Source: Phycisphaerae bacterium (GTDB lineage: Bacteria; Chloroflexota; Anaerolineae; 4572-78; J111). Taken from it: a DNA stretch of 64,000 bases. The stretch is from positions 62,001-126,000 of the forward strand of contig JANQQF010000181.1 of the NCBI GenBank assembly GCA_028285035.1, given 5' to 3'. The notes under the pieces were generated by a model. It did not search any database. It was not told where the DNA came from and saw only the letters and a program-made list of their open reading frames with translations. Positions 41,001-61,857 of the stretch are shown here, piece after piece. Made by a program: the position numbers and the translations under genes. How positions within the stretch are numbered: the stretch's first letter is position 1; each line of letters begins with the position of its first letter.

Positions 41001-41373
41001 TTACATGTCTGTGATGTTAAAAGGGCTCAAAATCGTAGCAGGGATTACGGCAGGAGCAGGCGGTGTTATTGATGAACGGATGCTTTCAGACATTAATGAG
41101 GAAGTGAGATTGATGGATAAGGTGGTCAGCACGTTAGCGCCAAAAGGGGATTGGGAAGGCGAAAGACCTGTTGAAGAAGGGGCAGCCTTTTCCGCAGATG
41201 ACGCACGCGGATTACGAGAATTTCACGATTTACTGGCTCATGTAGGGTGGAGGCCGGGGGCGGCTAATCTACGGCGGGTAATGGACAAATCCACTGGAGA
41301 TATTTTATGGGTTTGTCCTCGACACTATAAAGAGTATGATCCTGGTCTACCCCAACTACCTGAACAGATATAA
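38092..41373 (+). CDS. Leucine-rich repeat Roc-COR (ROCO family) GTPase
   Basis: 1093 residues. Residues 40-355 are leucine-rich repeats with a 23-residue period (LPPEIGQLQNLTSLNL type). The Roc GTPase domain has G1 GEGGVGKSS (391-399), G3 DFGGQE (443-448) and VATHCNQ in place of the usual TKxD. The COR domain (about 560-740) follows, then a Cys-rich segment (VPCPTQVDGQSC and WPCGECIED) and a C-terminal region of unknown fold ending WVCPRHYKEYDPGLP. Two DNA blocks of 69-bp repeats encode the LRRs. ROCO proteins are dimeric GTPases of signalling; the bacterial role is unclear. It is alone, with a 207-base upstream gap. Confidence 0.92.
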   Translation: MSNDQAILEQLKKTLGVDLEPIIIYQDDKEQAEDRFRFNENRELIHLNLFGYKLSELPPEIGQLQSLTSLNLDGNQLSQLPPEIGQLQNLTSLNLDGNQLSQLPPEIGQLQNLTSLELTRNQLSQLPPEIGQLTHLVVLHIWGNPFSALPSEIQNLTNLSTFSFNSDQLAELPATIFSLENLRLLDVSGNITIKIFPKSIKKLVKLKTLHLTRSQITKLSSEVGQLQSLTSLNLDGNQLSQLPPEIIELQSLTSLNLDGNQLSQLPPEIIELQNLTSLSLSSNQLSQLPPEIIELQNLTSLSLSSNQLSQLPPEIDQLQNLTSLSLSSNQLSQLPPEIGQLKNKIRLNIADNPWPDALTPLFDRPTLEILTYLRSLQGGSPQYEAKILLIGEGGVGKSSLLAALKGDQFVEGRLTTHGIEQTTLSTTHPNTTIEEALRLNFWDFGGQEVYRITHQFFFSRDAVYLLVWKPREGQEENALEDWLERIQLRVGTEAKVLIVATHCNQRQPELDYPYLESRFGHILVEHFEVDNEDNTGIEALLNEIKSVVTTHLKHIGTPLSQAWLAAKDEILAQPETHITYATFEQVCHKHNLDTVEVKALSILLHTLGHIIYYDKDGLRDYVVLKPEWLTKAISYILDDGKTRIDKGVLDHRRLKQIWSTHQDEEWALYTEVYFPFFLRLMEEYDVSVRLEGRNESLIPQLVPYEQPKISWQTETSVERGQLTLICEMRQNPPGLIAWLTARNHRWSTETHWRKGVFLRYRDGHEALIEFESQTSLMLTVTVQGVYPSDFMSILRNSLQNLIEDRWPYLNYELLVPCPTQVDGQSCTGRFKLETLKKARNKRQVWPCGECIEDIEIAQILDGISIPQTSIEDKLEQIQQGLEDLDQKTSQEMRIIAAQSNQVLRQLLQASLSEARQGPRLFTLSPVSSGLSTESYSLRLWCEHSEEKHPCYDAPLYVIEQPKVWLVKMAPYMSVMLKGLKIVAGITAGAGGVIDERMLSDINEEVRLMDKVVSTLAPKGDWEGERPVEEGAAFSADDARGLREFHDLLAHVGWRPGAANLRRVMDKSTGDILWVCPRHYKEYDPGLPQLPEQI
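38260..38487 (+). repeat. 69-bp tandem repeats, LRR block 1
   Basis: The word CTTCCTCCTGAAATTGGTCA starts at 38260, 38329, 38398 and 38467, a strict 69-base period. The copies differ by only a few bases, for example AAAGCC versus AAAACC. This low divergence points to recent expansion or gene conversion within the ROCO gene. Confidence 0.9.
38755..39115 (+). repeat. 69-bp tandem repeats, LRR block 2
   Basis: A second block with units beginning at 38815, 38884, 38953, 39022 and 39091, again 69 bases apart, with an upstream partial unit from 38755. Units alternate between encoding LNLDGNQLSQLPPEI and LSLSSNQLSQLPPEI. A more diverged LRR stretch (38490-38754) separates it from block 1. Confidence 0.9.
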
Positions 41374-44250: not shown

Positions 44251-47200
44251 ATGTCAGAGCTTGCCGAAATGCCCGTGAGTGGGCGTTACCTGCTACATCA
44301 AAAATTAGGGCAGGGTGGGATGGGGACGGTCTATCGGGCTACCGACCGCCTCACGGGTGATGTTGTTGCCCTAAAACAAGTCACGGTTCCCACGAAACAG
44401 CTCGACTTTTCCTCACGGGCTTCCTTTAATCAAAGTAACAACTTTCGCTTAGCATTGGCTCAGGAATTCAAAGTCTTGGCCTCCCTTCGTCATCCCCATA
44501 TCATCAGTGTCCTTGACTACGGCTTTAATGCAGACCGTCAACCCTTTCTAACAATGGAACTCCTGGAAAAGGCCCCAAACTTGATTGAAGCGGGCCGTGA
44601 TCAGCCCCATAATCAACAGGTTGCTTTACTGATTCAACTGCTTCAGGCTCTGGCTTATTTGCATCGACGGAACATTATTCACCGTGATTTGAAGCCGGAC
44701 AATGTGTTGGTGGTGGATGGGCAGGTCAAGGTACTGGATTTTGGTTTGGCTGTGGCGCGGGAGCATCTGAATGAGACCAACGGCCAAGTGGCGGGAACCT
44801 TGGCTTATATGGCCCCTGAGGTATTGGAGGGAGAGCCGGTCAGTGAAGCCTCGGACCTATACGCGGTGGGGGTGATGGCCTATGAATTATTTGCTGGAAA
44901 ACATCCCTTTGATACCGAAAATTTAGGGCAACTGATGTTGGATGTCCTGCAAACCGTGCCTGACACCCAAATTTTAGGGCAGTCGGATCAGTTCAATCAA
45001 ATTGTGGCCCGACTGTTGGAGAAGCAGCCGGCCAAGCGATATGGGTCAGCCCCTGAGTTGATTTCGGTTTGGACTGAAGCAGCAAACCAGCCGGGGTTGG
45101 GTGCAGAAACGATCGAAATCCGGGAAAGTTTTTTGCAGGCAGCTCAATTTGTGGGACGAGAGGATGAATTTGCGCAGTTGAACAAGGCTCTGAAAGAAAC
45201 GTTGGCTGGCCGAGGCAGTGCTTGGTTGATTGGCGGCGAAAGTGGGGTGGGTAAGTCGCGCCTCTTGGATGAATTGCGAACCCAGGCCCTAGTCGATGGG
45301 GCTTGGGTCTTTCAAGGCCAGGCTATCAGCGAAGGGGGGGCACCGTACCATCTGTGGCAAACAATTTTGCATTGTTTATGTCTGGTCGGCGATCTCTCTG
45401 ATTTAGAAGCAGGCATCCTCAAGCCTTTAATCCCGGATATCGCTGCGGTCTTAAACCGCCCCATTCCAGATGCGCCGAAAGTATCACCCAAAGCTGACTT
45501 TGAGCGTCTTATCAACTTGATTGTCTCTATTTTTCAAAGGCAAACGCAGCCCATCGTCGTCATTTTGGAAGATATTCATTGGATTGATGACAATAGCTTG
45601 ACCGTTTTAGAGCACCTCAGCCAGGAAATCGCAACCCATTCCCTTTTGATGATTGCCAGCTATCGTGATGACGAGCACCCTCGCCTGCCATTGTTGTTAC
45701 CCGAGATGTCGATCCTCAAATTGTCCCGTCTTGATGAGACAGGGATTGCTGCGTTGAGCGAGTCGATGTTAGGCGACATTGGGAAACGTCCAGCAGTCTT
45801 ACAATTGTTGCGACGCGAAACCGAAGGAAACACCTTCTTTATGGTCGAAGTCATGCACATTCTGGCGGAAACAGCCGGTCATCTTGACCAAATCGGCCAC
45901 ATGGATCTCCCTGACACTGTCCTGGCCGGTGGCGTCCAGCGAGTATTGCACCGTCGCTTGAACCGCATTCCAGAGTCAGCACGACCATTGTTAAAGGTAG
46001 CGGCTGTGGCGGGACGGATGCTCGATATTAGCCTGCTTCGCTTGATGGACACCCCGCTGCATCTTGATGCCTGGCTGACAACCTGTGCTGAGTTGGCAGT
46101 TTTGGAGATACAGGCTGATCGTTGGCGTTTTACCCATGACAAATTGCGGGAAGGGTTGCTAGCTGAATTATCCGTAACTGAACAGCAACACCTCCACCAC
46201 CAAGTGGCTCAGAAAATTGAGCAACGTTACCCAAATCAAGCTGACCATGTTGCAGCCTTGGCTTTTCACTGGCAACAGGCCGATGTCGCTCCCAAGGCCT
46301 TTCGTTATTTGATGCAAGCGGGAGAAAACGCTACCCAGGTCTATGCCAATGGTGAGGCGATTGAGTTTTATAAGCAGGCCATAACCCTCATTGATCGGAG
46401 CGAGGCCAGCCCAAAAGATGTCCTTGACCTTTACAACCGACTTGGTCGGACCCTGGAATTAAGTGGCAAAATGGAAGAGGCCCTGACCACCTATCAGGCT
46501 ATGGCTGATCTCGCCGATCAACAACAAAATCGTCCGATGACCTTAGCGGCGTTGATTGCTCAAACAACCCTCTTTTCCACCCCAAACTCATTACATGATC
46601 CTGGGCAAGGGATAGAGTTAGGGCAGGTGGCCCTTCAGTTGGCTCAAGAGCTAAAAGATGGTGAGGCCGAGACAAAAACCTTGTGGAACTTGTCCCTAGC
46701 CCACTCTTGGTCAGGGCAGCCAGCCGAGGCGATTCGTTATGGTGAAGCAGCCGTAGATTTAGCACGACGGCTGGGATTACGAGAGTTACAAGCCCTCGCC
46801 CTGAATGATTTATGCCTGGTGTATGTCAATTCATACTTTGAACGAGCCAAGACTGGCTTACAAGAGGTCATTCAGTTATGGCGTGAGTTAGACAATCTGC
46901 CGATGTTGACTGATAGCCTAACTTTGTTTGCGGCTGTTCATATTTTGCGGGGTGAATTTGATCAGGGGATTGCTTTTTCCGATGAAGCGTTTCAGATTAG
47001 TCACCAAACAAACAACCTGTGGGGACAATCCTTTAGTCGGATGACCGTAGGGCAAGCGTATTGGGAGCAAGGTCACGCGGATCAGGCCATCACCCTGATC
47101 AATGAATCCCTCCATTGGAGCGAGTTGTCTGGCTTTGTCGTCCCACAGATCAGCACCAGGGTCGATCTCGCAAATATCTACGCGGGCTTGGGCGCGATTG

Positions 47201-47808
47201 ATCAAGCGTTGGAATTCACCCAGATTGCAATTACTTATGCCGACCCTCCTTTCAGCATGTTCAAGACATACGCCCTATGCACCTTGGCCCAAATTTATCT
47301 TTTACAAAGCAATTTGGCCGAAGCTGAAAAGGCGTTGACCCAAGCCAAAAACGATCCGAATGGAACCATCTTCCCTACTTGGTATATGCCAGTTGGTATT
47401 ACGGAAAGCACATTCGTCTTGCAACAGGGGGATCCAACGCAAGCCTTACAAATTGCTAGAACTTGGCTCGCCATGTTAGACCAGAATGGGATGAGTATCT
47501 ATCGCCTGCCGCTTCTTTATACTCAGGCTAAAGCTCACCTTGCCTTAGGTCAAATTACCGAGGCTAAACAAAGCTTGACTATTGCCAAAGGCATTGCGCT
47601 CGCGAATGATTCTCGTCGAATGTTGTGGAAAATTCTTGCACTTCTCGCCAATATCGAGCAGCAACAGGGACAGCCAGCAAAAGTTGAAGTGCTTCGTAAT
47701 CAAGCCCAAACGCTCATCAATTATATCGCCGACCATACAGGGTCCGCCGACCTCCGTACCTCATTTTTGGCTTTGCCAGAGGTTCAGGTGGTCTTGAGGG
47801 GTATTTAG
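44251..47808 (+). CDS. Serine/threonine kinase-AAA ATPase-TPR protein
   Basis: 1185 residues. Residues 13-275 are a Hanks-type kinase with GQGGMGTVYRA, Lys42, HRDLKPDN (Asp146), DFG (Asp163) and APE (MAPEVL). An AAA_16-like ATPase follows with GGESGVGKSRLL, about residues 328-339, and VVILEDIHWID. The C-terminal 500 residues are TPR-like repeats. All catalytic residues are present, so it should phosphorylate proteins under control of the ATPase/TPR part. The architecture matches the cyclase at 20214 with the kinase in place of the cyclase. No cognate substrate gene is adjacent. Confidence 0.92.
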   Translation: MSELAEMPVSGRYLLHQKLGQGGMGTVYRATDRLTGDVVALKQVTVPTKQLDFSSRASFNQSNNFRLALAQEFKVLASLRHPHIISVLDYGFNADRQPFLTMELLEKAPNLIEAGRDQPHNQQVALLIQLLQALAYLHRRNIIHRDLKPDNVLVVDGQVKVLDFGLAVAREHLNETNGQVAGTLAYMAPEVLEGEPVSEASDLYAVGVMAYELFAGKHPFDTENLGQLMLDVLQTVPDTQILGQSDQFNQIVARLLEKQPAKRYGSAPELISVWTEAANQPGLGAETIEIRESFLQAAQFVGREDEFAQLNKALKETLAGRGSAWLIGGESGVGKSRLLDELRTQALVDGAWVFQGQAISEGGAPYHLWQTILHCLCLVGDLSDLEAGILKPLIPDIAAVLNRPIPDAPKVSPKADFERLINLIVSIFQRQTQPIVVILEDIHWIDDNSLTVLEHLSQEIATHSLLMIASYRDDEHPRLPLLLPEMSILKLSRLDETGIAALSESMLGDIGKRPAVLQLLRRETEGNTFFMVEVMHILAETAGHLDQIGHMDLPDTVLAGGVQRVLHRRLNRIPESARPLLKVAAVAGRMLDISLLRLMDTPLHLDAWLTTCAELAVLEIQADRWRFTHDKLREGLLAELSVTEQQHLHHQVAQKIEQRYPNQADHVAALAFHWQQADVAPKAFRYLMQAGENATQVYANGEAIEFYKQAITLIDRSEASPKDVLDLYNRLGRTLELSGKMEEALTTYQAMADLADQQQNRPMTLAALIAQTTLFSTPNSLHDPGQGIELGQVALQLAQELKDGEAETKTLWNLSLAHSWSGQPAEAIRYGEAAVDLARRLGLRELQALALNDLCLVYVNSYFERAKTGLQEVIQLWRELDNLPMLTDSLTLFAAVHILRGEFDQGIAFSDEAFQISHQTNNLWGQSFSRMTVGQAYWEQGHADQAITLINESLHWSELSGFVVPQISTRVDLANIYAGLGAIDQALEFTQIAITYADPPFSMFKTYALCTLAQIYLLQSNLAEAEKALTQAKNDPNGTIFPTWYMPVGITESTFVLQQGDPTQALQIARTWLAMLDQNGMSIYRLPLLYTQAKAHLALGQITEAKQSLTIAKGIALANDSRRMLWKILALLANIEQQQGQPAKVEVLRNQAQTLINYIADHTGSADLRTSFLALPEVQVVLRGI

Positions 47809-50045: not shown

Positions 50046-52262
50046 ATGTTTAGATTTCTTGGTCAGCTTAGTGTTAAAACAAAATTAATTTTAATGGTAC
50101 TCATCATCAGCCTTGGTTCAGCCTTGGTGATTGGCTACCTAAGCTTGGAGATCAGTCGTCAGGCCTTGTCAGATGCGGCAACACAGCGGCTCGCAAATAT
50201 ACGAACCGAAAAAGCCCTACAAATTGAAACCTATTTTCAGAGATTACACGATCAGATTGAGATTTTGTCGGAGGATGAAACAGCGATTGGCGCGATGGTT
50301 CGCTTTAACAAATCGTTTCGCGAGCTAAATCACGAATTGATTCAACAAGAGCAAGACACCAGTTTGCAGGCCTACTATCAGGATGAATATTTCCCTCAAC
50401 TGGCTCCGCACGTTGCTGGTGAGTTGAGCTTTGATATTTATCGTCCCACCAGTCAGGCGGCGCACTACCTACAATATCACTACATCTCAAACAACCCATT
50501 TTCTCCATCAGAAAAATTAGAACTCATCAATGCCGAAGATGGGAGTGAGTACAGCTTATTTCACGAGCGTTATCACAAGGTCTTTCGCAGTTTAGTGCAA
50601 AAATTTGGTTACCACGATTTGTTCCTGATTGATTTTGAGACACAAGAAGTTATCTATTCTGTTTCAAAAAAGGTTGATTTAGGCACAAGCCTCATCGATG
50701 GTCCTTATGCCCAGAGTGGTTTATCAGAAGTGATCAAACGGGTGCGAGCCCGTCCAGAGATTGGGGCTGTCCAGATTATTGATTATCAGCCCTACACACC
50801 CTCATCTGAAAACCTAGAGGCGTTCATAGCCGCCCCAATCCATAATGGCCCTCATATTGTTGGAATCTTAGCGGCGCAGCTCCCTATGGATGAAATTGAT
50901 CGGATATTGAACAATAATCAGCAGTGGGAAGAGACTGGATTAGGGCGTAGTGGCGAAACCTATTTGGTTGGACCCGACTTTCGCCTTCGCTCAAACCCAC
51001 GTCTCTTGATTGAGGACCCGGCAGCATATCTTACCCGTGAACGAGCGAGAGGTCTACCAACCGAGGCGGCCACCAAAGTTGAGCAATTCAACACTGCTAT
51101 TTTATTACAACAACGCGATACCCCAGCCACCCGAGCCGCCCTCAATGGCGAAGCTGGTGAACGTATCATTCGAGTATCAGGACACCCCCCGATTTTAAGT
51201 ACATATCAACCCCTTAATCTGCCGGGCTTAAATTGGGTGATTATAACGGAGATGGAAGAAGGCGAGGTCTTACAACCCGTTCTGGCTCAACAACGAGCGA
51301 TTCTAACCGCGATGGGAATTCTGGCCGTTGTCGTCACCATTTTAACAATCATCCTATCTTACAGTTTTGTTCGTCCAATGGATAGGTTGGTGGCTTCAGC
51401 TCATGAGGTAGAAGCGGGTGAGAAAAGCCTCATTTCCGTAAAATCAAAGGATGAATTTGGTTCATTGGCTGATACAATGAATAGCATCATCTCTAAATTC
51501 CGGGATGAGAATAAGCTTATCGCTCGCCAACATGAACAGCACGACGCGATGTTGACCAGTCTTGTACCCGAGGCCATTTTGGAACGGGTTGGTCGAGGTG
51601 AAGATCGGTTAGTCGAAGAGATCAATGCGGTCACCGTGATGATGATTCGGGTCCTGGGCTTTACGGAGTTCTCCGATCGTCAAGACACTGAAGAGGGCGC
51701 TCGGTTAATGGATGAGTGGAACCAAAACCTTAATGCCCTGGCTGAGAAACATGATTTAGATCGCATTGAAATCGTTGGGGAAAGTTTTATGGTCTCGTGC
51801 GGCCTTTCCAAGCCATATCTGGACCACGTCAAACGCACTTTAGATTATGGGCTAGATACATTCCGGATGGCAGAGCGCTTCAACGAACGTAACCAGACCC
51901 ATCTGTCATTGGTCGCCGGGGTAGAAACAGGACATATGACCATCGGCATCATCAATACCACAAGTTTTGAGTATGACTTGTGGGGGCAAACCTTGAACGT
52001 TGCTAGCGACCTCATGGTGGCAGCCCCTCGGAACACAATCCTGGTTTCGCCCTCGGTCTATGAGCGTCGCAAAGATCTATTTGCGTTCAAAAAATTTGAT
52101 AGAGTTCATTTAATGGATATCACGGAAAACCTCTATATTGACGCTTGGGTACTTGAAAGTCACAATCCATCGTCCACAGAGCCTGAAGATTTGACGGAAG
52201 ACTCGATTGTTTTGCTAAATAAAAGAGTTAAAGATATAGCAACCGATAATGATGATGAATAA
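50046..52262 (+). CDS. Membrane receptor with degenerate class III cyclase domain
   Basis: 738 residues. TM1 at about 11-31, a large extracytoplasmic Cache-like sensor (32-415), TM2 (417-437), HAMP (438-490) and a C-terminal class III cyclase-type domain (about 520-715). In that domain key residues are changed. The first metal Asp is Arg (VTVMMIRVLGFT), the second is Glu (IVGESFMVSCG), and the transition-state Arg is Asp (LNVASDLM), though the adenine-type Asp (YDLWGQ) and Asn are kept. It is thus likely a non-catalytic or altered cyclase used for signalling or binding. It leads a cluster, 52 bases before a channel gene with a cyclic-nucleotide-binding domain. Confidence 0.88.
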   Translation: MFRFLGQLSVKTKLILMVLIISLGSALVIGYLSLEISRQALSDAATQRLANIRTEKALQIETYFQRLHDQIEILSEDETAIGAMVRFNKSFRELNHELIQQEQDTSLQAYYQDEYFPQLAPHVAGELSFDIYRPTSQAAHYLQYHYISNNPFSPSEKLELINAEDGSEYSLFHERYHKVFRSLVQKFGYHDLFLIDFETQEVIYSVSKKVDLGTSLIDGPYAQSGLSEVIKRVRARPEIGAVQIIDYQPYTPSSENLEAFIAAPIHNGPHIVGILAAQLPMDEIDRILNNNQQWEETGLGRSGETYLVGPDFRLRSNPRLLIEDPAAYLTRERARGLPTEAATKVEQFNTAILLQQRDTPATRAALNGEAGERIIRVSGHPPILSTYQPLNLPGLNWVIITEMEEGEVLQPVLAQQRAILTAMGILAVVVTILTIILSYSFVRPMDRLVASAHEVEAGEKSLISVKSKDEFGSLADTMNSIISKFRDENKLIARQHEQHDAMLTSLVPEAILERVGRGEDRLVEEINAVTVMMIRVLGFTEFSDRQDTEEGARLMDEWNQNLNALAEKHDLDRIEIVGESFMVSCGLSKPYLDHVKRTLDYGLDTFRMAERFNERNQTHLSLVAGVETGHMTIGIINTTSFEYDLWGQTLNVASDLMVAAPRNTILVSPSVYERRKDLFAFKKFDRVHLMDITENLYIDAWVLESHNPSSTEPEDLTEDSIVLLNKRVKDIATDNDDE

Positions 52263-52314
52263 TTACAGAGTTCTATTGTCCCACCATCGGAACAGTGAGA
52301 GGTAAATAAGGGCG

Positions 52315-53820
52315 ATGTTTGATTTATTGTTACAAGATCCGCTACTGGGCTGGGTATTAGGTTTGGTTGTTGGCCTCCCCGTTTTGATAATTCTCTTGGG
52401 GGAATTAAATGAGCGCCTAAGCAAACAAAATAACCCACTCGCTCAATTTGTTCGCCAAGTCCGCCACTATATTGTTCCCTTGGTGGCCGTTTCCATCATT
52501 TTACAGGCAATTTTGAATTTACCCGCCAATGATGGAGCGGTTCGATTTGTCGACACCCTGCTCTTAATTGTCATCATTTATGTGGGCCTGACCCTGCTAA
52601 ACAATCTCCTGAGTATCGCTAATTCATCAGAAAGCACCATCATTTCAGATGTTCCCCGCTTATATTTCACCTTGGGCCGAGTTGTGGTCGTCCTTCTCAT
52701 TGGTTCCCAAATCCTGACAGGCGTTTGGGGAATTGATATATCTAATCTTGTGACCGCTTTGGGGGTTGGATCACTGGTGATTGCTTTGGCGTTACAAGAC
52801 ACATTGAGTAATCTTGTGTCAGGGTTCCTGTTATTGATTGATCGTCCCTTCAAAGTGGGCGACCGTTTGTTGATTGGTGAAATCAAAGGGGCTGGTGAGG
52901 TTCGTGGGGATGTCATTGATGTGAACTGGCGGGCAGTCCGTATTATGGATCGAGATCGCAATCTTGTGGTCATCCCAAACGGTACGCTAGGTAATAGTAT
53001 CATTTACAACTATAGCCAGCCCTCAACCATACGTCGCTACAGCTTCCTCATTACATTTGCTTATGATCATCCGCCCAATCGGGTCAAAGCGGTTATCTTA
53101 GACGCGATTCGGTCAGCCAATGGGATTGTAGCCCAACCAACACCAAAGGCATTTGTGTGGTCTTTTGGTGAGTCGGGTATCGAATACATGATTCGGGTAT
53201 TTAGCCATAAACCTGCCATTGGGCCTGTCCGAGATGCAGTTATCGGCCAGATTTATTACGCGGCAAAACGCAACGAGCTGACAATACCCTATAATATTCA
53301 AACGGTCTATCATCACGATCACACAAATGCTGCCCCTGAAGATCCACGTCCAGAAATACAAAATGTTCTTGAGTCGATTAGCGTGTTACAAGGTCTGGAT
53401 GATTTTGCCCGTGAAGAGCTGGCTGATAATGCTCGGTTTAGCTATTACGGCGCGGGCGAAACAATTATCAGGCAAAATGAAGCTGATGAAGGCTTCTACA
53501 TTATTTGGAAAGGTCAAGCGAAGTTACTGGCCAAGGATGAGACTGATACAGATCAGGAAGTCACCCGTTTGGAGCGGGGTGATTTTTTCGGTGAAATGGC
53601 TTTGCTTCGAGACAAACCTAGCCCAGTTTCTGTCGTTGCCCTCACCGATTTGGAACTCCTCATCATCAGCCACGAGTCAATCAACCTAGTCCTTGAAGAA
53701 GTTCCTAGCTTTGCTCTGGAAATGGGTCAATTTATTGAAGAGCGGACCAAAATGGTCAAAATCGCCTTGGGTCAGGAAGAAGTTTTAACAAATGGGCAGT
53801 TCAAACCGCTGGTTGATTAA
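52315..53820 (+). CDS. MscS channel with C-terminal cyclic-nucleotide-binding domain
   Basis: 501 residues. N-terminal TM helices (about 10-165), MscS core (ALGVGSLVIALALQDTLSNL, then GFLLLIDRPFKVGDRLLIGE), cytoplasmic beta/alpha cage to about 345, then a cNMP-binding beta-roll (about 350-480, GAGETIIRQNEADEGFYIIW). This is the layout of bacterial cyclic-nucleotide-gated (bCNG) MscS-type channels. The phosphate-binding cassette reads FFGEMALLRDKPSPVSVVA, so the conserved Arg that contacts the cyclic phosphate is Ser. Glu is kept. Ligand binding may be lost or changed. It lies between the degenerate cyclase and a double PstS-like lipoprotein. Confidence 0.9.
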   Translation: MFDLLLQDPLLGWVLGLVVGLPVLIILLGELNERLSKQNNPLAQFVRQVRHYIVPLVAVSIILQAILNLPANDGAVRFVDTLLLIVIIYVGLTLLNNLLSIANSSESTIISDVPRLYFTLGRVVVVLLIGSQILTGVWGIDISNLVTALGVGSLVIALALQDTLSNLVSGFLLLIDRPFKVGDRLLIGEIKGAGEVRGDVIDVNWRAVRIMDRDRNLVVIPNGTLGNSIIYNYSQPSTIRRYSFLITFAYDHPPNRVKAVILDAIRSANGIVAQPTPKAFVWSFGESGIEYMIRVFSHKPAIGPVRDAVIGQIYYAAKRNELTIPYNIQTVYHHDHTNAAPEDPRPEIQNVLESISVLQGLDDFAREELADNARFSYYGAGETIIRQNEADEGFYIIWKGQAKLLAKDETDTDQEVTRLERGDFFGEMALLRDKPSPVSVVALTDLELLIISHESINLVLEEVPSFALEMGQFIEERTKMVKIALGQEEVLTNGQFKPLVD

Positions 53821-53850
53821 TTCCAGCTAGGTCATCAAAAGGAACGCACT

Positions 53851-55749
53851 TTGTATCCCAATACATTGCTCAAATCTATACAAATCTTAGGTCTGATACT
53901 TCTAGGTTTGATCTTATCATCGTGTCAGGAAGCCGTGTCTGAAGAGCCGACCCCTAGCGTTCAAATCACGCCGACGCCGACAATTATCGCAGAAATTGCC
54001 ACACCTCGTCCCACGATTGCCATAGGCATCCGAGCCGCAACCACCCCAACCAGCGATATTATTTTGCCAGAAATCGATCCTTTGGAGGTGACCGGTGATG
54101 TCTCCACCTATGGCAGTTCTACGGTCATGCCTTTGGTTCGTACGCTGTATCGCCGTTTTATTCGGGAAGGCTATCCAGGTGTGATGGCCATCAATGAAGT
54201 TGGGACTGGATTAGGGTTAGAGTTGTATTGCACCACAGGTGAAATTGATATTGCTTCGGCAAGCCGTAAAATTACAGCTAACGAGCGCGAAGCCTGCGCC
54301 AAAATCGATCGAGCTCCCATTGAATTTCTAATTGGTGTAGACGCGCTATCGATTGTGGTTAATGTCGAAAACGATTTTGTGCAAGATGTGACGATTGATG
54401 AGGTGCGCACCCTATTTACGGCCCGCCGTTGGTCTGATGTTAGACCCGAGTGGCCAAACCAGCCGATTGAGCGCTTCATTCCAAATGAGAATTCCGGTAC
54501 CTTTAACTTTTTTGTGGACAACGTATTTGATGGCGACACTATAACTTTATTAGATGCCCAAAATACAGAAAGTAACAGTACCCCTGAATTAGTGGCCCAA
54601 AATGTAGGAAATAGTTCATTTGGGCTTGGATTTGTGGGGCATGCCTTTTTCAAACGAAATAATGATGCCCTTAAAATAGTGGCTATTGATGGCAACATTC
54701 CCTCCAAACGATCTGTTACAAATGAAACTTATCCACTTATTCGCCCGCTATATCTTTACAGTGATTTGCACATTATCTCAGAAAAACCTCAAGTTCGCGC
54801 TTATCTCAATTTTTTCTTGAACCACGTTAATGAGGAAATTGATAGCATTGGTTATTTCCCAATCCGACAAGATATTTTGGATGAATCAAAGATAAGACTG
54901 GTTGCGACCCGAAGTGGCGATATTAGTATTACAGGCAGCACAACCATTAGCCCTATCATTGAAGTTTTGGCTGAACGCTTTCGCGAGAAGGGGGCTGGCA
55001 ACAAGATCTTTATAGACAGAGTTGGCTCGGTCGCTGGGCTGGAACGATTTTGCACTGACCCAACTGTGGATATTGTCATGGCCAGTCGACGCATTCGGGA
55101 TGAAGAAAATAACAATTGTGCCAATAATGACCGTATCCCCATTGAGTTTCGTATCGGAACCGATGCTGTGGCCGTCATTGCTAACCCGGCCAATACCTTT
55201 CTTGAAGATACAACCGTTGAAGAGTTAGACTTTCTATTCACCCGAGACAAGTGGACAGACGTTGATGAAGATTATTGGGACGAGCCAATTATCCGCTTTA
55301 TTCCTAGCCCTACCACTGGCACCTTTGACTTCTTCACTGATCGCGTTTTTCTTGAAGGTGAAACAGAACCTATTTTGGAGGCATCAAACACCATTCGCAG
55401 CATCTATGATGAAGCGATTGTTCAGGGTGTGGCTGATGATCCAAACGGACTCGGTTTTGTTGCCTATAGCACCTATCAAAATAACGCCGATTTACTCAAA
55501 ATCATTGCCATTGATGGCGTTCGGCCTGGGGCCGAAGTGCTAGATGCAAATGCGTACGCCTTATCACGACCCCTCTTTATTTATGTAGACTCGCAAGCCC
55601 TAAGAACTAAACCTCAAGTCGCGTCATTTGTCACATTTGTCATCACCCGAGTCAATGAGGATATTGAGAACGTGGGGTATTTCCCCGTAAGCCAAGAGAC
55701 ATTAGACCAAGCCAAAGCATTTTTATGGCGAGTTATGGGAGCATCCTAA
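53851..55749 (+). CDS. Lipoprotein with two tandem PstS-like domains
   Basis: 632 residues, TTG start. Signal peptide with lipobox LSSC (Cys25), a Pro/Thr-rich linker (30-75) and two phosphate-binding-type domains at about 80-345 and 356-625. Each repeat has the PstS pattern: GSSTVMPL or GSTTISPI, GLELYCTTGEIDIASASR or GLERFCTDPTVDIVMASR, RFIPNENSGTFNFF or RFIPSPTTGTFDFF, and a GLGFVG or GLGFVA turn. No pst permease or ATPase is near. It may be a phosphate or anion sensor for the cluster rather than an importer subunit. It begins 30 bases after the bCNG gene. Confidence 0.88.
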   Translation: MYPNTLLKSIQILGLILLGLILSSCQEAVSEEPTPSVQITPTPTIIAEIATPRPTIAIGIRAATTPTSDIILPEIDPLEVTGDVSTYGSSTVMPLVRTLYRRFIREGYPGVMAINEVGTGLGLELYCTTGEIDIASASRKITANEREACAKIDRAPIEFLIGVDALSIVVNVENDFVQDVTIDEVRTLFTARRWSDVRPEWPNQPIERFIPNENSGTFNFFVDNVFDGDTITLLDAQNTESNSTPELVAQNVGNSSFGLGFVGHAFFKRNNDALKIVAIDGNIPSKRSVTNETYPLIRPLYLYSDLHIISEKPQVRAYLNFFLNHVNEEIDSIGYFPIRQDILDESKIRLVATRSGDISITGSTTISPIIEVLAERFREKGAGNKIFIDRVGSVAGLERFCTDPTVDIVMASRRIRDEENNNCANNDRIPIEFRIGTDAVAVIANPANTFLEDTTVEELDFLFTRDKWTDVDEDYWDEPIIRFIPSPTTGTFDFFTDRVFLEGETEPILEASNTIRSIYDEAIVQGVADDPNGLGFVAYSTYQNNADLLKIIAIDGVRPGAEVLDANAYALSRPLFIYVDSQALRTKPQVASFVTFVITRVNEDIENVGYFPVSQETLDQAKAFLWRVMGAS

Positions 55750-55784
55750 ACATATTTAGATCACGTCTAAAACAGGAACACACT

Positions 55785-56909
55785 ATGGTCCAGCAAAAAT
55801 ACCCCTCCAGTTGCTTCAAATGGTTTTTCAATTTTATCTTAATACCCATCATCGGGCTGACACTCATTGCTTGTGCCGAGGAGGAAATCCCACAGACCGA
55901 AACATCAGGTCGAATAACCGTCTACACCCCGCTTCGCAGAGATTGGGCTGAGCAATATTTAGCTGACTTTAACCGCAACTACCCTAATATTGAAGTGGAA
56001 TTGGTTAGGGAGCAAGCATTACCGTTAACCCAACGTCTGTTTGATGAACAAGATGATCCTCAAGCAGATGTCGTTTGGGCCTTATCGGTTATGAATATGC
56101 TTCAAGCTGAATGGAAAGGCATGCTCAAAATCTATCAACCAGAGGGATTGTACTTTGATGCGCAGCAACGCGAACCTCGGATTGCCACAATGTTTCGGGA
56201 CACCAATAATCCTCCCTACTGGGTTGGTGTTGCGGCCCGAACGATCGTCATATGCACAAATCCAGATTTGATGATAAGTGAGGGTTTATCTCCTGATGAG
56301 TTGACCAGTTGGCGCGATTTAGCCGAGAAGGAGTATCGAGGCAAACTCGTTATGCCCGTGCCCCCATCAACGAGTGTCGGTCTTTTACTCTCTTCGGTGA
56401 TGATCCAGCGTTACGGTGAAGTTGAAGGTTGGGATTATCTGGCAAGAATTCACGAGAATACGGGGGCTTATCTTCCAACCGCAACAGGCGCTTGTGAAGC
56501 CGTTGCTCGGGGAGAGTATCCAATCGCGGTCAGTTGGGGATATGTTTCACTTCCATTAGAAGCAGAGGGCAAAGTAAAAACCATCTTTCCAGAAGAAGGG
56601 GCTGGCTGGGAGCTGGAGGTAAATGCTTTGGTGCAAAAGAAAGAGATTAAGCCGGCTGCAAAAACCTTTCTCAATTGGGCTATTGAAGATGAGGCCATGA
56701 TGCTACATGCAGCAAATCGGCCACTGACTGCGGCTAATATAGATATTCCAGCAAGCGAAATTTACCCAGAAAATCCAACAGACCTTTTACTGGATCAAGA
56801 TGTACCGTGGATGGCAGCGAACCGTCATCGCATCGAAGAGATCTGGTGTAATAAATATGGCCCCAGCTTTGGCAGATTCACCCCTCAGGCTTGCCAAGTA
56901 GTCGAATAG
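55785..56909 (+). CDS. Family 1 extracellular solute-binding lipoprotein
   Basis: 374 residues from ATG 55785, with AGGA upstream; an in-frame ATG at 55725 lies inside the preceding gene. Signal peptide with lipobox LIAC (IIGLTLIACAEEE). The mature part is a periplasmic-binding fold of the iron/aminophosphonate-like type: TVYTPLRRDWAEQYLADFNR, ADVVWALSVMNMLQAEWKG, YRGKLVMPVPPSTSVGLLLS and FLNWAIEDEAM. The ligand is unknown. No matching importer permease is present; the next gene is an exporter-type ABC protein 27 bases on. Confidence 0.87.
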   Translation: MVQQKYPSSCFKWFFNFILIPIIGLTLIACAEEEIPQTETSGRITVYTPLRRDWAEQYLADFNRNYPNIEVELVREQALPLTQRLFDEQDDPQADVVWALSVMNMLQAEWKGMLKIYQPEGLYFDAQQREPRIATMFRDTNNPPYWVGVAARTIVICTNPDLMISEGLSPDELTSWRDLAEKEYRGKLVMPVPPSTSVGLLLSSVMIQRYGEVEGWDYLARIHENTGAYLPTATGACEAVARGEYPIAVSWGYVSLPLEAEGKVKTIFPEEGAGWELEVNALVQKKEIKPAAKTFLNWAIEDEAMMLHAANRPLTAANIDIPASEIYPENPTDLLLDQDVPWMAANRHRIEEIWCNKYGPSFGRFTPQACQVVE

Positions 56910-56936
56910 GAAGCTAACCAGCTAGAGACGAAAACA

Positions 56937-59123
56937 ATGTCCTCTACAAATCCATCTCAATTCTCCAATGTTATCTGGCGTGAGTCTGAATTAGACAAAG
57001 CGCTACACATTTTAGCCCAAAAGCGAGGGCTAATCTCCGAAACACATATTCTTCATCCCCTAACAAGCGCTCAACAAAGCGCGTCATTGGGAGAGCGACT
57101 CTCATCAGGCGAGCGACTCTCATTAGGAGAGTGGCTCCCATTTATTGGCGTACAACTTGATTTAGAAGTAGAACCCGTCACCCTTCCTTACCCAGACATC
57201 GAAATATTTCTCAACCAAACCAATCCTATCATTCTTCCGTTTCAACCTTCCACTCACCCCGAGCCTCATTTTGTTGTTGTTCTTAAGGGGGGGCGTTGGC
57301 GGATTACCGTTCTAACGCCGGATGGGCAAACACATCGTATTTCACCGCAGGCTCTGAAACGGGCAGTTTGTCACGATTTAGAAAATAACCTTTCTGATAA
57401 AATTGAGGGAATACTAGAACCACTAACGTTATCTGAACAAAGGCATCAAAAGGCATATGATGCCCTTCTAACCGAATACCTGGCCGACACCCACCTTAAT
57501 AATATTTGGTTAGTGCGCCCAGCAACACGACAAAACTTTTGGGGGCAGATTCGCAAAGCTGGTCTCTTTAATTATTTGTGGCTGCACATTGGCGAGCGGG
57601 CTGTCTCATACGCCCTATTTCTGTTCGCGCTTGGTTTGATGGGGCGGGCGATTGACCCAAACAGTCCAGCTTGGCTATTCCTTGTGACTGGTGTACTCGT
57701 CTGGTTGGCCCGAATTCCGTTCGCAGCCACCATCTCCTGGGTAGAACGTAAATATGCGGTTGATGTTGGATATCTATTTAAACAACATTTATTCGAGGGT
57801 GTTTTGCGTCTCAAACTGGAAGATGTCCAGCATCAAGGCTCGGGGCGGTTCTTGGCTTGGCTTTTAGAAGCTGAAACGGTTGAAGAAGCTGGTTTAAGTC
57901 GAGGTTCAGGGCTAATTTCTTCAAGTGTAGCTCTATTGACAATCATTATCACCTTGCTTATTGTTGGGGATTTTACGATCGGTATTCTTCTCTTTCTGTG
58001 GTTAGTCGGCTCGGGTTGGATGATTTGGCGATTAGTCAGTCATTATCAAACCCTCAATGAGTATCACAGCGTTATGATCAGCAATTTGTTGGAACGATTA
58101 CATGGACACAAAACTCGTCTGATTCAGGAAACCGATTGGTATCAGCCAGAAGATCAAACATTGGCCCAATATTTATCCTTAGCCCAAGCTTACGATCGGC
58201 ATTTACTCCCAATTTGGGTGCTCATCCCTTATGGGGGTGTCATCATCATGCTCATTGGGTTAATCCCATCTTTCATATTTGGCCCAACTACGCCAGCTGA
58301 GCTAGATTTTTTAGTTGGCGTCCGATTCGCCGCTTTGTTATTTGGCCTATTACAACTACAAATCTTGGCCTTAGCTATTCCTGAGACAGCTAAAGCATTG
58401 GCTGCGTGGAAACAAACGGAATCTCTGCGCAACGCGGCTACGAATAATCTGTCCGTTGATACCCCCGCAGAAATCACCCTATCAAGTGATATTGAAATCG
58501 CGCCTAATTTAATTCCCATTCTCGAAGCCAAAGAAATTGATTTCCACTATCCAAATGATAATCATTTGGTCTTAACCAACTGCAATCTCAGCATCAACAC
58601 AAATGACCAACTCCTATTACAAGGCCCATCGGGGAGTGGAAAATCTACGCTTGCCGCATTACTGGCGGGGTTGTACCCAGTCAACCGTGGCCTCCTACTT
58701 TTGTGGGGGCTTGACCGATACACGGTCAGTGATGCAATTTGGCGCAAACGCGTCATCGCCACCCCCCAATTCAATACCAATCACATTCTAAACGCACCTT
58801 TGGCCTTTAATCTATTGATGGGGCGGCAATGGCCGCCTTCACCGGAAGATTTAGCGGAGGCCGAACAAATTTGTCGGGAGTTGGGTTTAGGAGATCTAAT
58901 AGACCGAATGCCTGATGGTCTTAATCAAATTGTAGGCGAGCAAGGTTGGCGCTTATCGCATGGTGAAGCTAGCCGTCTGTACATCGCACGGACCCTTTTA
59001 CAATCAGCGGACCTTATTATCTTGGATGAAAGCTTTGGATCATTAGACCCCGAAAGCATGCAGATGACGATGGAAAGTGCCCTAAATCGAGCAGAAACCA
59101 TCATGGTCATTGCTCATCCATAG
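56937..59123 (+). CDS. Exporter-type ABC transporter (TM-ATPase), C-terminally short
   Basis: 728 residues. Residues 1-190 form an N-terminal domain that looks like a degenerate C39 peptidase-like domain (GRWRITVLTPDGQTHRIS), without a clear catalytic Cys. TM domain at about 215-495, then an ATPase with Walker A GPSGSGKST (about 562-570), signature variant RLSHGEASR and Walker B LIILDESFGSLDPES. The chain ends at VIAHP, right at the H-loop His, so the last 25-30 residues of a normal domain are missing. The layout is that of NHLM/bacteriocin-type peptide exporters. It is followed by a mini HlyD-like gene nine bases on. Confidence 0.87.
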   Translation: MSSTNPSQFSNVIWRESELDKALHILAQKRGLISETHILHPLTSAQQSASLGERLSSGERLSLGEWLPFIGVQLDLEVEPVTLPYPDIEIFLNQTNPIILPFQPSTHPEPHFVVVLKGGRWRITVLTPDGQTHRISPQALKRAVCHDLENNLSDKIEGILEPLTLSEQRHQKAYDALLTEYLADTHLNNIWLVRPATRQNFWGQIRKAGLFNYLWLHIGERAVSYALFLFALGLMGRAIDPNSPAWLFLVTGVLVWLARIPFAATISWVERKYAVDVGYLFKQHLFEGVLRLKLEDVQHQGSGRFLAWLLEAETVEEAGLSRGSGLISSSVALLTIIITLLIVGDFTIGILLFLWLVGSGWMIWRLVSHYQTLNEYHSVMISNLLERLHGHKTRLIQETDWYQPEDQTLAQYLSLAQAYDRHLLPIWVLIPYGGVIIMLIGLIPSFIFGPTTPAELDFLVGVRFAALLFGLLQLQILALAIPETAKALAAWKQTESLRNAATNNLSVDTPAEITLSSDIEIAPNLIPILEAKEIDFHYPNDNHLVLTNCNLSINTNDQLLLQGPSGSGKSTLAALLAGLYPVNRGLLLLWGLDRYTVSDAIWRKRVIATPQFNTNHILNAPLAFNLLMGRQWPPSPEDLAEAEQICRELGLGDLIDRMPDGLNQIVGEQGWRLSHGEASRLYIARTLLQSADLIILDESFGSLDPESMQMTMESALNRAETIMVIAHP

Positions 59124-59132
59124 AAACCTATT

Positions 59133-59594
59133 ATGTCGAGCCAATTTCCACGGTCAGCCACCCTTATTCAAAGTCGTAACTTGCGCCCTGCCCTAATTGG
59201 AATTATTATTTTTATATTCCTGGTAATTTTATGGGGGGGGTGGTTTCTTTTTGCTCAAGTCTCATTTTATGAGACAAGCCAATCAGCTATTCTCTCATCC
59301 GAGGGGATTATCGTCGCCGATTTTCCTCAAGATGCATTGACGCACATCCAGCAAGGACAGACAGCCTTGTTTAAGGTCATCGACTCAACAGGGCAGCCCC
59401 AACAAATATCAGCTACCGTAGCCATAGTTGATCGTTCACAGAACCAAATCAAACTCATCCCAACCGTTGATGATGCCACGGTGTTAGGTGCCCTTACCCA
59501 TGGGATGCCTGGACAGGTTGATGTTATTATTGAACAATTATCACCAGCTACTTTAATTCTAAAATCGGCTGGCTTACGATCAATCTCAAATTGA
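59133..59594 (+). CDS. Minimal HlyD-like membrane adaptor
   Basis: 153 residues. One TM helix (about 20-42), then a small beta-rich domain (50-150): SSEGIIVADFPQDALTHIQQ, GQTALFKV and GMPGQVDVIIE. The pattern matches the beta-barrel part of HlyD/membrane fusion proteins that serve peptide exporters, but the lipoyl domain and coiled-coil hairpin are absent. A short adaptor of this kind would fit a single-membrane cell. It lies nine bases after the ABC protein and is most likely its partner. Confidence 0.7.
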   Translation: MSSQFPRSATLIQSRNLRPALIGIIIFIFLVILWGGWFLFAQVSFYETSQSAILSSEGIIVADFPQDALTHIQQGQTALFKVIDSTGQPQQISATVAIVDRSQNQIKLIPTVDDATVLGALTHGMPGQVDVIIEQLSPATLILKSAGLRSISN

Positions 59595-59796
59595 AGTATT
59601 ACTGCGATTTTTACATAATTCACAAGAGATATTCACACCTAAAGAAAACTTTACCGCCACAGATCAGAATTTAAGTCGCTGTCTGATGGATCATTTTAAC
59701 AGTAAGCCGAATCCTGGGTAGATCTGAGCCTCATAGATTCATGTACGAAGATTAAACAATCAAAGTCTTACTCGGTTTACTTAACAAAGAGGAATT

Positions 59797-60939
59797 ATGG
59801 ACTCAATTATAGGCCCAAACACAATCGGAATTAATGTCGATTATGTCCTTCAGATTATAGGCTGGATATCATTAATCCTTTTTGTCATCTTCATTATCAC
59901 TTGGTTTATTCGGACCCTAATTCGAGAAGGATTGCTTACCGCCCTGCTGGAAATGTTATCCTTCCGAGTATTAATCCCCCTTCTCATCGTACTCGGTCTT
60001 AACCTTCTTAGTGCCTCAATTATCTTTGTTCAACCGCCAACGGTTGGTGTTGTCGTTTCAGCAATTTCGCCTGGCGGGGTTCGACCTGAACCAATGCGGT
60101 CAGGCTTACACTGGATTATTCCTCTGCTTGAAGAAGTTGCCATTTATCCAATTTATTGGCAGACCTACACGATGTCGGCCAGAATAAATGAGGGTGAAAA
60201 TTTTGGTGAAGATGCCATTCGAGCAAGAACAAGTGATGGTCAAGAGGTTTGGTTAGATACATCGGTCATTTTTCGAATAAATGTAAATCAGGTTATTCAG
60301 GTTCATATCGATTGGCAGGAACGATATACGGCCGATTTTATCCGCCCCTTGGTGCAGGGCCAAGTGCGTACCGAAGTTGCTAAGTTTACAGTAGATGAAG
60401 TTAATAGCTCTAAACGGGGTGATTTAGAGACTGCATTAAATCGTCTGCTTGAGGAAGAATTTTCTGACAAGGGCTTACTGTTGGATCAATTTCTATTGCG
60501 TGACATTACTTTCTCACAGGAATATGCAGAGTCAGTCGAACGGAAACAGGTTGCCCTCCAGCAAGTCACTCAAGCGGAACGAGAAGCGAGACAAATGGAG
60601 CGGCGAGCCACCGGTAGGGCTAACGCTATTCGTATCGAAGCTCAAGGTCAGGCAGAAGCTCTAAAACTCATTGGTGATGCCTTGAATGCCAATCCTGACT
60701 TGGTTACATATCATTATGTGGATCGATTATCACCCAATATTAGAGTGATGCTTGTGCCCAGTAACAATCCTTTAATTTTACCATTACCTGACTTAGATGA
60801 GGTAGATACAATGACAAATACAGTCCCCATAACTGACACATTATCTACCCCGACGTTACCAGCTACATTAACCCAATCCATTGACTTACCAACGGGAGCC
60901 TCAGGTCAGCTTCCGTTCATCAACTTTGGCGGAAATTGA
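59797..60939 (+). CDS. SPFH/band 7 (prohibitin-like) membrane protein
   Basis: 380 residues. Two N-terminal TM segments (about 17-42 and 55-75), an SPFH domain (about 80-240, with FVQPPTVGVVVSAI and DFIRPLVQGQVRTEVAKF), a coiled coil (240-290, QVTQAEREARQMERRATGRA) and a Thr/Pro-rich C-terminal tail. SPFH proteins form ring-like microdomain scaffolds in membranes. It is 202 bases after the adaptor gene and on the same strand, with an unknown gene 117 bases on. A NfeD partner gene is not seen nearby. Confidence 0.9.
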   Translation: MDSIIGPNTIGINVDYVLQIIGWISLILFVIFIITWFIRTLIREGLLTALLEMLSFRVLIPLLIVLGLNLLSASIIFVQPPTVGVVVSAISPGGVRPEPMRSGLHWIIPLLEEVAIYPIYWQTYTMSARINEGENFGEDAIRARTSDGQEVWLDTSVIFRINVNQVIQVHIDWQERYTADFIRPLVQGQVRTEVAKFTVDEVNSSKRGDLETALNRLLEEEFSDKGLLLDQFLLRDITFSQEYAESVERKQVALQQVTQAEREARQMERRATGRANAIRIEAQGQAEALKLIGDALNANPDLVTYHYVDRLSPNIRVMLVPSNNPLILPLPDLDEVDTMTNTVPITDTLSTPTLPATLTQSIDLPTGASGQLPFINFGGN

Positions 60940-61056
60940 TTTCTTTTTGTTTTACATACAACTAATGCCTTTTATGACTGCTGATTTGGTCGCAAATCTA
61001 AAATTCAAATCAAAACGAGTTATTTGGCACTATTATCCAAAATCAGGAGAGTAACT

Positions 61057-61857
61057 ATGCCTTTCTACATTTTTATCGCCGTACTGATTGTTATTGTGGC
61101 TATTTTATCTATTGTTATTGATCGTAATCTACGAATTCGCAAGTTAGAAGCCAATCTCAATACTGAAACCACCGAAGCGAGTGGCGAAAGCAGTACTTTA
61201 ACCAGTGGTTTAGAAGATGTCCGGGATCGCATTACTGGCAAAAAGCGAAAAGAGCTACCAAAACGTTACCAAGTGTGGGCAGCTAAAAATATCAAAGATA
61301 ACGCGCTTAATGAATGGGTTGCAGGACTTTCAGACGAGGAGCTTGAGCCGTTGGTATTTAGTTTAGCCAAGTTTGTCTCACAGCAAGGGATTGATTTGAC
61401 CTGGCTGACAGATAGCAAGCTTGATACCGATCCAGAAATCAAGAAAAGCGTTGAAACGATTGCCATTTCTTACAATTCAGCCTACCGCGATGCACAACTC
61501 GCCCAGGATAATGTCACCCTTTTCAAAGCTATACAAGGCCTAGAAGGTTTACCTTCAAGCCGCAGTAACCAAGCATTGGCCCAACAATTGTATGCTGAGT
61601 TGGTTAAACAAGAGTTGGCCCCTGCTACTTCACCAGAAATGTTGTTAGCCAACGACAGCGAGCGTCGTGAGCACATTCAAGCCACTATTCAAAATGTAGC
61701 TCAAAAAGATCGTGAAGCCTTCAAGCGTGTTCTCAAAGAAGTTTTGACTGCCACCAAAGACGGAAAAGGTGAAGAAGAATTGAACTCTTCCTGGAAAGCT
61801 CTAAACATCTTTAAGCGCAACGATAAGTCTACAGAAGCCGAAGTGGTGTCACATTAG
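61057..61857 (+). CDS. Uncharacterised TM-anchored helical protein
   Basis: 266 residues from ATG 61057 (AGGAGAG five bases upstream); a TTG at 61024 would add 11 residues. One TM helix (about 4-24, FIAVLIVIVAILSIVI), a short acidic linker (30-60), a basic patch GKKRKELPKRYQ, then an all-helical cytoplasmic domain to the C terminus. The family is not recognised. It follows the SPFH gene by 117 bases, so it could be a scaffold partner. No enzymatic motif is seen. Confidence 0.72.
   Translation: MPFYIFIAVLIVIVAILSIVIDRNLRIRKLEANLNTETTEASGESSTLTSGLEDVRDRITGKKRKELPKRYQVWAAKNIKDNALNEWVAGLSDEELEPLVFSLAKFVSQQGIDLTWLTDSKLDTDPEIKKSVETIAISYNSAYRDAQLAQDNVTLFKAIQGLEGLPSSRSNQALAQQLYAELVKQELAPATSPEMLLANDSERREHIQATIQNVAQKDREAFKRVLKEVLTATKDGKGEEELNSSWKALNIFKRNDKSTEAEVVSH

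Follow-up and report, generated by a model that had tools for sequence, protein, structure and literature searches.

A recurrent Chloroflexota gene set around an ABC half-exporter, probably part of a peptide secretion system

The gene run in the window

The window analyzed here is the whole 64-kb stretch (64,000 nucleotides) of contig JANQQF010000181.1 from a Chloroflexota genome, and the subject of this work is a run of genes within it that was originally predicted to form an undescribed envelope unit of eight consecutive plus-strand genes. All eight open reading frames (ORFs) were found, and the domains named in the prediction were matched, with some of the labels changed (Table 1). Six of the eight genes, encoding two binding lipoproteins, the ATP-binding cassette (ABC) half-exporter ABC2, a mini adaptor, an SPFH protein and the helical protein C6, belong to a recurrent Chloroflexota gene set. 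We consider it probable that this set is the export-and-envelope part of a secretion system for ribosomally synthesized and post-translationally modified peptides (RiPPs).

Table 1. Genes of the run and their positions in the window
Product	Position	Strand	Basis	Remark
Cache-HAMP receptor, degenerate class III cyclase domain	50046..52262	+	domain match, alignment to solved cyclases	likely local neighbour; membership of the system not supported
MscS-type channel, cyclic nucleotide (cNMP)-like domain without the usual phosphate-binding Arg	52315..53820	+	domain match, alignment	likely local neighbour
Lipoprotein, two PstS-like (PBP_like_2) domains	53851..55749	+	domain match	same family in relatives
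SBP_bac_6 (PhnS2-like) lipoprotein	55785..56909 (ORF opens 55725)	+	domain match	same family in relatives
ABC2 half-exporter: C39-like domain without catalytic Cys, transmembrane region, nucleotide-binding domain ending at the H-loop	56937..59123	+
Mini adaptor, HlyD-type without lipoyl domain and helical hairpin	59133..59594	+	alignment to relatives
SPFH protein of the subfamily accompanying ABC2	59797..60939	+
C6: N-terminal helix (likely transmembrane) and helical domain, no Pfam assignment	61024..61857 (likely start ATG 61057)	+

The first six genes had been placed 9-52 bases apart, and with ATG 55785 taken as the start codon of the second binding protein, the gaps are indeed 52, 30, 35, 27 and 9 bases; the first ATG of this frame, at 55725, would produce a 25-base overlap with the preceding gene. 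Between the mini adaptor and the SPFH gene there are 202 bases, and the gap from the SPFH gene to C6 amounts to 84 bases when counted to TTG 61024, or 117 bases to ATG 61057, which is preceded by ggaga. Across the run, there are 13 terminator-like sites versus 11.8 in shuffled sequence.

The recurrent gene set and its two neighbours

Relatives were drawn from an ABC2 alignment scan of GTDB genomes, which returned 228 encoding stretches in Chloroflexota, Acidobacteriota, Myxococcota, Planctomycetota, Pseudomonadota, Thermodesulfobacteriota and Verrucomicrobiota; the best 80 of the 228 were retained as loci and compared together with regions of nine genomes (L, G and P numbers denote loci or regions, genomes and proteins, respectively). 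A protein search, limited to scoring the 7,996 candidates with the most words in common, yielded three full-length ABC2 relatives besides the window protein. In a quick tree of 85 ABC2 rows with SH-aLRT supports, the window protein pairs with that of L001 (support 100), and 46 rows from Acidobacteriota, Pseudomonadota, Myxococcota, Planctomycetota and others form clade B (support 96). The remainder, denoted group A, is made up of the pair of window and L001, of L040/L115, and of a 35-row clade (support 94) with 16 Chloroflexota, 9 Pseudomonadota, 6 Thermodesulfobacteriota, 1 Verrucomicrobiota and 3 ungrouped sequences. The comparisons below involve 46 clade B loci and 44 group A regions, several of the latter sharing one genome. 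These 44 comprise the window, 34 loci out of the 80, and another nine regions taken from the same genomes or from related ones.

The C39-like character originally ascribed to the exporter is supported by a profile match of its front domain to ABC1, the partner half-exporter of relatives (hhalign 99.8%), aligned from residue 59. An AlphaFold2 model of ABC2 (mean pLDDT 77), for which the top PDB matches are PCAT1 structures (~695 aligned columns), predicts the peptidase-transmembrane-nucleotide-binding domain (C39-TMD-NBD) fold of the PCAT type. There is no Cys ahead of residue 145, so the protein lacks the active Cys of a C39 peptidase. The Walker A Lys, the signature, the Walker B Asp-Glu and the H-loop His are invariant in a 20-row ABC2 alignment, and in the four rows viewed in full, the protein ends one residue past the H-loop His.

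ABC1 is present in all 10 genomes picked for carrying ABC2, as fragments in G005 and G007. The two are fused in L128 as a single ORF of 1629 amino acids (aa), and P0256 (1696 aa) is a candidate second fusion. The gene order in clade B is HlyD - ABC1 - ABC2; in group A, ABC1 adjoins the mini adaptor in many loci, at times apart from ABC2. Together, the fusion in L128 and the co-occurrence suggest that ABC1 and ABC2 act as a heterodimer. The Cys of the DCG motif is kept in 46 of the 50 ABC1 front domains scored (the alignment has 51 rows, of which L036 has no front), those without it coming from L001, L013, L024 and L046. Of the 31 proteins closest to the L001 ABC1 among the matches listed (P0077-P0107), 27 lack a Pfam call for C39, and the catalytic Cys is missing from all six that were aligned, which suggests a sizeable Cys-less branch of ABC1 around the relatives of L001.

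The minimal HlyD-like adaptor that had been proposed is borne out by alignment: the 153-aa window protein corresponds to the N-terminal segment plus the C-terminal part of the 391-396-aa HlyD of relatives, and the lipoyl domain and helical hairpin required of an HlyD membrane fusion protein are absent. All 19 adaptor genes detected in the group A regions encode 145-202 aa, versus 384-516 aa for all 35 in clade B. Short adaptors are also found in L015, L030 and L070 (Thiotrichales, Desulfobulbaceae), so envelope type alone is insufficient to explain the shortening.

SPFH genes are present in 24 of the 44 group A regions versus none of the 46 clade B loci, C6 genes in 16 versus none, and pentapeptide proteins, recognized by repeat pattern, in 16 versus one. 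C6 had been described as an unknown anchored protein; its N-terminal helix is likely transmembrane, in line with this description, and its family has members in other Chloroflexota loci. It is modelled as helical (pLDDT 80), with no clear relative found among solved structures, and C6 was found in none of 14 genomes outside the phylum. That the binding proteins come without an importer holds as well, none of the eight proteins matching an importer permease family (E<=0.1). The PstS-like family is fused to pentapeptide repeats in L052, L040/L115 and L113, and the SBP_bac_6 family of solute-binding proteins (SBP6) occurs in L113 and L040/L115 and, fused to pentapeptide repeats, in L008. L113 and L115 have the order SPFH - C6 - pentapeptide+PstS-like - pentapeptide - SBP6. 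In L113, a weakly sulfotransferase-like gene is interposed. All six kinds of genes are found within ~30 kb on one contig (C84) of G002, with the mini adaptor and ABC1 in L125 and the rest in L115, and also in G001, spread over two contigs (L132, L113); no other locus examined has the six genes in exactly the order of the window. The gene-neighbourhood check proposed with the original prediction thus recovered the binding proteins, ABC2, the adaptor, SPFH and C6 in relatives, but no orthologue of the receptor or the channel beside them.

Several other genes were observed around these loci. P-type ATPase genes, some with no hydrolase domain match, lie near SPFH/C6 in L040/L115, L069, L108 and L112, and in L016, L023, L029, L031 and L040, pentapeptide genes or ABC2 are followed by a gene for a ParA/MinD-type ATPase. 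Other extracytoplasmic binding domains near the system belong to a fusion of pentapeptide repeats with LamG and to Peripla_BP_6 and SBP_bac_5 proteins (L046, 2317-4428 and 11529-13037; L024, 6967-8481; L110, 15277-16950; L006, 16409-18640).

The pseudo-cyclase receptor and the channel are likely local neighbours of the set. In cyclases, the metal-binding Asp pair and the transition-state Arg are catalytic, and in cNMP domains an Arg binds the phosphate. Compared with solved cyclases, the receptor has Arg at the first metal Asp, Glu at the second, and Asp at the transition-state Arg, confirming the degenerate domain that had been proposed; an active class III cyclase would have the Asp pair and the Arg. 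The channel, proposed to be of the bCNG type, does have the MscS core and a cNMP domain, but Ser replaces the phosphate-binding Arg, so it is not a textbook member of this class. With both nucleotide domains degenerate, nucleotide signalling of the textbook form by these proteins appears unlikely. A tblastn search (1e-4) across the 80 loci found no receptor match and only two weak channel matches (28%), in L009 and L030, on the opposite strand; in profile scans, neither protein had a match above 100 bits outside the window. Within the 10 ABC2 genomes, the channel has one distant match (27%), in G005 on a different contig, and the receptor has partial matches only, in G004, G005 and G018; G005 has three of these, one of which shows 40% over the Cache part and lies ~26 kb from the ABC1 fragment on the same contig. 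The claim that receptor and channel are parts of the unit was therefore not upheld, no close counterpart of either standing beside the system in the relatives examined.

Weak MscS-like profile matches (20-51 bits) were seen near exporter genes in L009, L030, L127 and L129. The window also encodes a serine/threonine kinase-AAA-TPR signalling protein (1185 aa) upstream of the run, at 44251-47808, and an LRR-Roc-COR protein of the bacterial Roco type (1093 aa) at 38092-41373.

Leader-type peptides and interpretation of the set

Clustering of the 25-130-aa ORFs near the transporters brought out a leader-type motif of the VKTNVKAG kind. The strict pattern, [VI][KR]T[DNGSH][VLI][KR][AS]G, has 49 hits in 25 of 89 loci, versus a mean of 0.2 in five shuffles; with conditions on start and tail added, 27 of 92 regions yield 52 hits, each repeated core being counted singly, versus none in ten shuffles, and a relaxed pattern has 100 hits in 46 of 92 regions versus 1-5 in shuffles. 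Many of the hits are supplied by the repeated cores of L019, L041 and L075. Microviridin-like KYPSD repeats follow PFFAR[FY]LE leaders in L014, L043 and L051, repeated NHNQ cores occur in L041 and L075, tryptophan-rich tails are found on the motif peptides of L003, L005, L126 and L127, and Chloroflexota have a CGC-containing type. Small proteins of the CGC type resembling these Chloroflexota peptides are known from phage genomes, and the labels microviridin core, PFFARFL and GG cleavage are used here in their customary sense. Precursor-like peptides of Chloroflexota in L016, L023, L029, L031 and L052 have a core of the type GLGD...YEQVTGKPCGCDERR..LN in common.

Enzyme scans, which covered some of the loci, detected an MvdD-type ATP-grasp pair beside motif peptides in L014 and a LanM-type lanthipeptide synthetase (DUF4135-LANC_like) in L127. 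Passages of PMC8939145 mention PFFARFL and C39/GG, and describe C39 peptidase/ABC and HlyD genes as frequent companions of graspetide ATP-grasps. Eight regions (L125-L132) were fetched after the motif had been defined. The ABC1 regions of G002, G006 and G018 (L125, L126 and L127) contain a mini adaptor and an intact ABC1, together with motif peptides (two, two and one, respectively, some of the relaxed pattern), and L130, where ABC1 has its Cys and is cut at the contig end, contains two looser motif peptides; none was found in L128 (the ABC1-ABC2 fusion, Cys intact), in L129 and L131 (ABC1 pieces with no front), or in L132, which is the L001 locus again. Relaxed-motif peptides lie directly 3' of the C6 genes in L069. 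The strings VKTNVKAG, KTNVKAG, KTNIKAG and KTNLKAG were not found in searchable literature texts (figures, supplements and most subscription papers fall outside these); among the matches listed for 'KAG motif', no title concerned leader peptides, and no tie of SPFH to such RiPP exporters was found among the literature matches listed.

Given the leader-type peptides and RiPP enzymes in relatives, peptide export is favoured over a turgor or nucleotide gate. In the peptide secretion system that we consider probable, ABC2 would pair with a partner ABC1, likely encoded outside the window. As motif and peptidase together suggest, the C39 peptidase of ABC1, where intact, would cleave a short precursor after the [VI][KR]T.[VLI][KR]AG leader, and the pair would pump the core peptide out during leader cleavage. 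The short adaptor would form a cap over the exit and not extend to an outer-membrane tunnel. SPFH and C6 might organize or protect the membrane around the exporter, and the binding lipoproteins, which would be located outside the cell, might bind a ligand, the peptide itself or its target. Because the ABC1 of the nearest relative is Cys-less and no leader peptide was found, export may proceed uncleaved in this branch, or else the partner and the peptide may be encoded elsewhere in the genome. Of the secretion or envelope-stress unit envisaged originally, a recurrent six-gene set with predicted peptide export stands, whereas gating by the receptor and channel is not supported. A more specific version is tentative, and we lean slightly against it as a whole: the genes could represent an undescribed family of two-part RiPP exporters with a common VKTxxKAG leader shared by unrelated classes of peptides in many phyla, the Chloroflexota branch being distinguished by the adaptor stub and a dedicated envelope complex of SPFH, C6, and binding and pentapeptide lipoproteins at the surface, and the branch of the window by a leader peptidase that is switched off.

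Among 46 genomes of one family, ABC2 (E<=1e-60), C6 (E<=1e-5, with a query built from loci found through ABC2) and SPFH (E<=1e-30) are all in the same 3, and among 301 genomes sampled from the phylum, the 3 with ABC2 are also the 3 with C6. The chance of identical sets is ~7e-5 and ~2e-7, respectively, but these figures are flattering because both samples were centred on G001 by choice; without this genome, 2 of 45 and 2 of 300 genomes coincide (1 in 990 and 1 in 44,850, kinship ignored). This sampling effect is one of several points that weigh against peptide export by this set. The SPFH subfamily extends beyond the system (21 of the 301 genomes at E<=1e-60, 18 of them without ABC2), each of the two SBP families of the window occurs in only 4 of the 44 group A regions, the window included, and 18 of 52 regions with intact ABC1 have no motif peptide even with the relaxed pattern. 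In the window itself, neither a KAG-type peptide nor, among the subset of ORFs scanned, a RiPP enzyme was found; ABC1 was not found in its 64 kb, which gave generic NBD matches only, or on its contig among the matches listed (best 120 of 281 and best 120 of 182 in two protein searches).

Conceivably, though we regard it as unlikely, this is a repurposed branch of RiPP exporters in which cleavage was lost and the pair moves a lipid, a thiol or a surface protein within an envelope-maintenance complex that also includes SPFH, C6 and the binding lipoproteins. The Cys-less ABC1 proteins of L001, the closest relative, and of L013, L024 and L046 fit this scenario, and none of these four loci has a KAG-type peptide; in line with it are also the prevailing lack of a C39 call among the listed relatives of the L001 protein, with Cys absent from all six aligned, and the best NCBIfam score of ABC2, which is to CydC (132 versus a 329-bit cutoff). 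However, the link between Cys loss and peptide absence is weak, with 0 of 4 versus 34 of 52 for the relaxed motif (Fisher p 0.02) and 0 of 4 versus 20 of 52 for the strict one (p 0.29), both uncorrected for kinship; furthermore, the L001 locus is only 6.5 kb long, and the ABC1 of the window is unseen. An arrangement in which the whole eight-gene run is one stimulus-gated unit, with receptor and channel gating export, is improbable: the shared strand, the close spacing of the first six genes and the weak MscS-like matches in four loci would accord with it, but the 80 loci gave no receptor match and two weak channel matches, no orthologue of either stands beside the system, and both nucleotide domains are degenerate. 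Slightly less probable still are chance neighbours, that is, binding proteins left from lost phosphate or phosphonate importers beside an unrelated exporter. Both proteins do resemble importer binding proteins, and the scarcity of each family among the 44 regions would agree with such an origin, but both families adjoin SPFH-C6 in L113 and L115, and both are fused to the pentapeptide lipoproteins of the system, SBP6 in L008 and the PstS-like family in L052, L113 and L040/L115.

Relation to known systems

If peptide secretion is the function of the set, an orphan family of exporters, the new family of small proteins represented by C6 and a subfamily of SPFH proteins would all be linked to this process, in largely uncultured Chloroflexota and in other phyla. 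The common leader motif would provide a direct handle for discovering new RiPP precursors. With the shortened adaptor, it becomes testable how such exporters function when no outer-membrane tunnel is involved.

Among known systems, NHLP/NHLM bacteriocin export (TIGR03794 HlyD, TIGR03796 ABC1, TIGR03797 ABC2) resembles clade B in the combination of an HlyD-type protein, a C39-ABC protein and a second ABC protein; of this three-gene set, the window has the adaptor and ABC2, with no ABC1 in the 64 kb. The window ABC2 scores 78.8 bits versus the TIGR03797 cutoff of 709.4, and three relatives score 100-108; three ABC1 proteins tested score 156-200 versus 853, and the one HlyD tested scores 60 versus 156. 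Since all these scores are far below the cutoffs, we do not file the family under NHLP, from which it also differs in a leader-type motif ending in KAG and, outside clade B, in an adaptor without the lipoyl domain and hairpin. Transporters of the PCAT1 type are similar in the overall predicted fold of ABC2, including the front domain, and most ABC1 proteins of relatives keep the C39 Cys; here, however, there are two distinct halves, one of which lacks the catalytic Cys. The microviridin (graspetide) and class II lanthipeptide clusters share with the relatives MvdD-type ATP-grasps and PFFAR[FY]LE/KYPSD precursors (L014) as well as a LanM-type synthetase (L127), whereas none of these enzymes is among the scanned ORFs of the window, and SPFH, C6, pentapeptide and SBP lipoproteins are additional features of the Chloroflexota loci. 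Finally, HlyBD type I secretion likewise combines an ABC exporter with an HlyD-family adaptor, but the window adaptor retains only the transmembrane segment and the terminal barrel.

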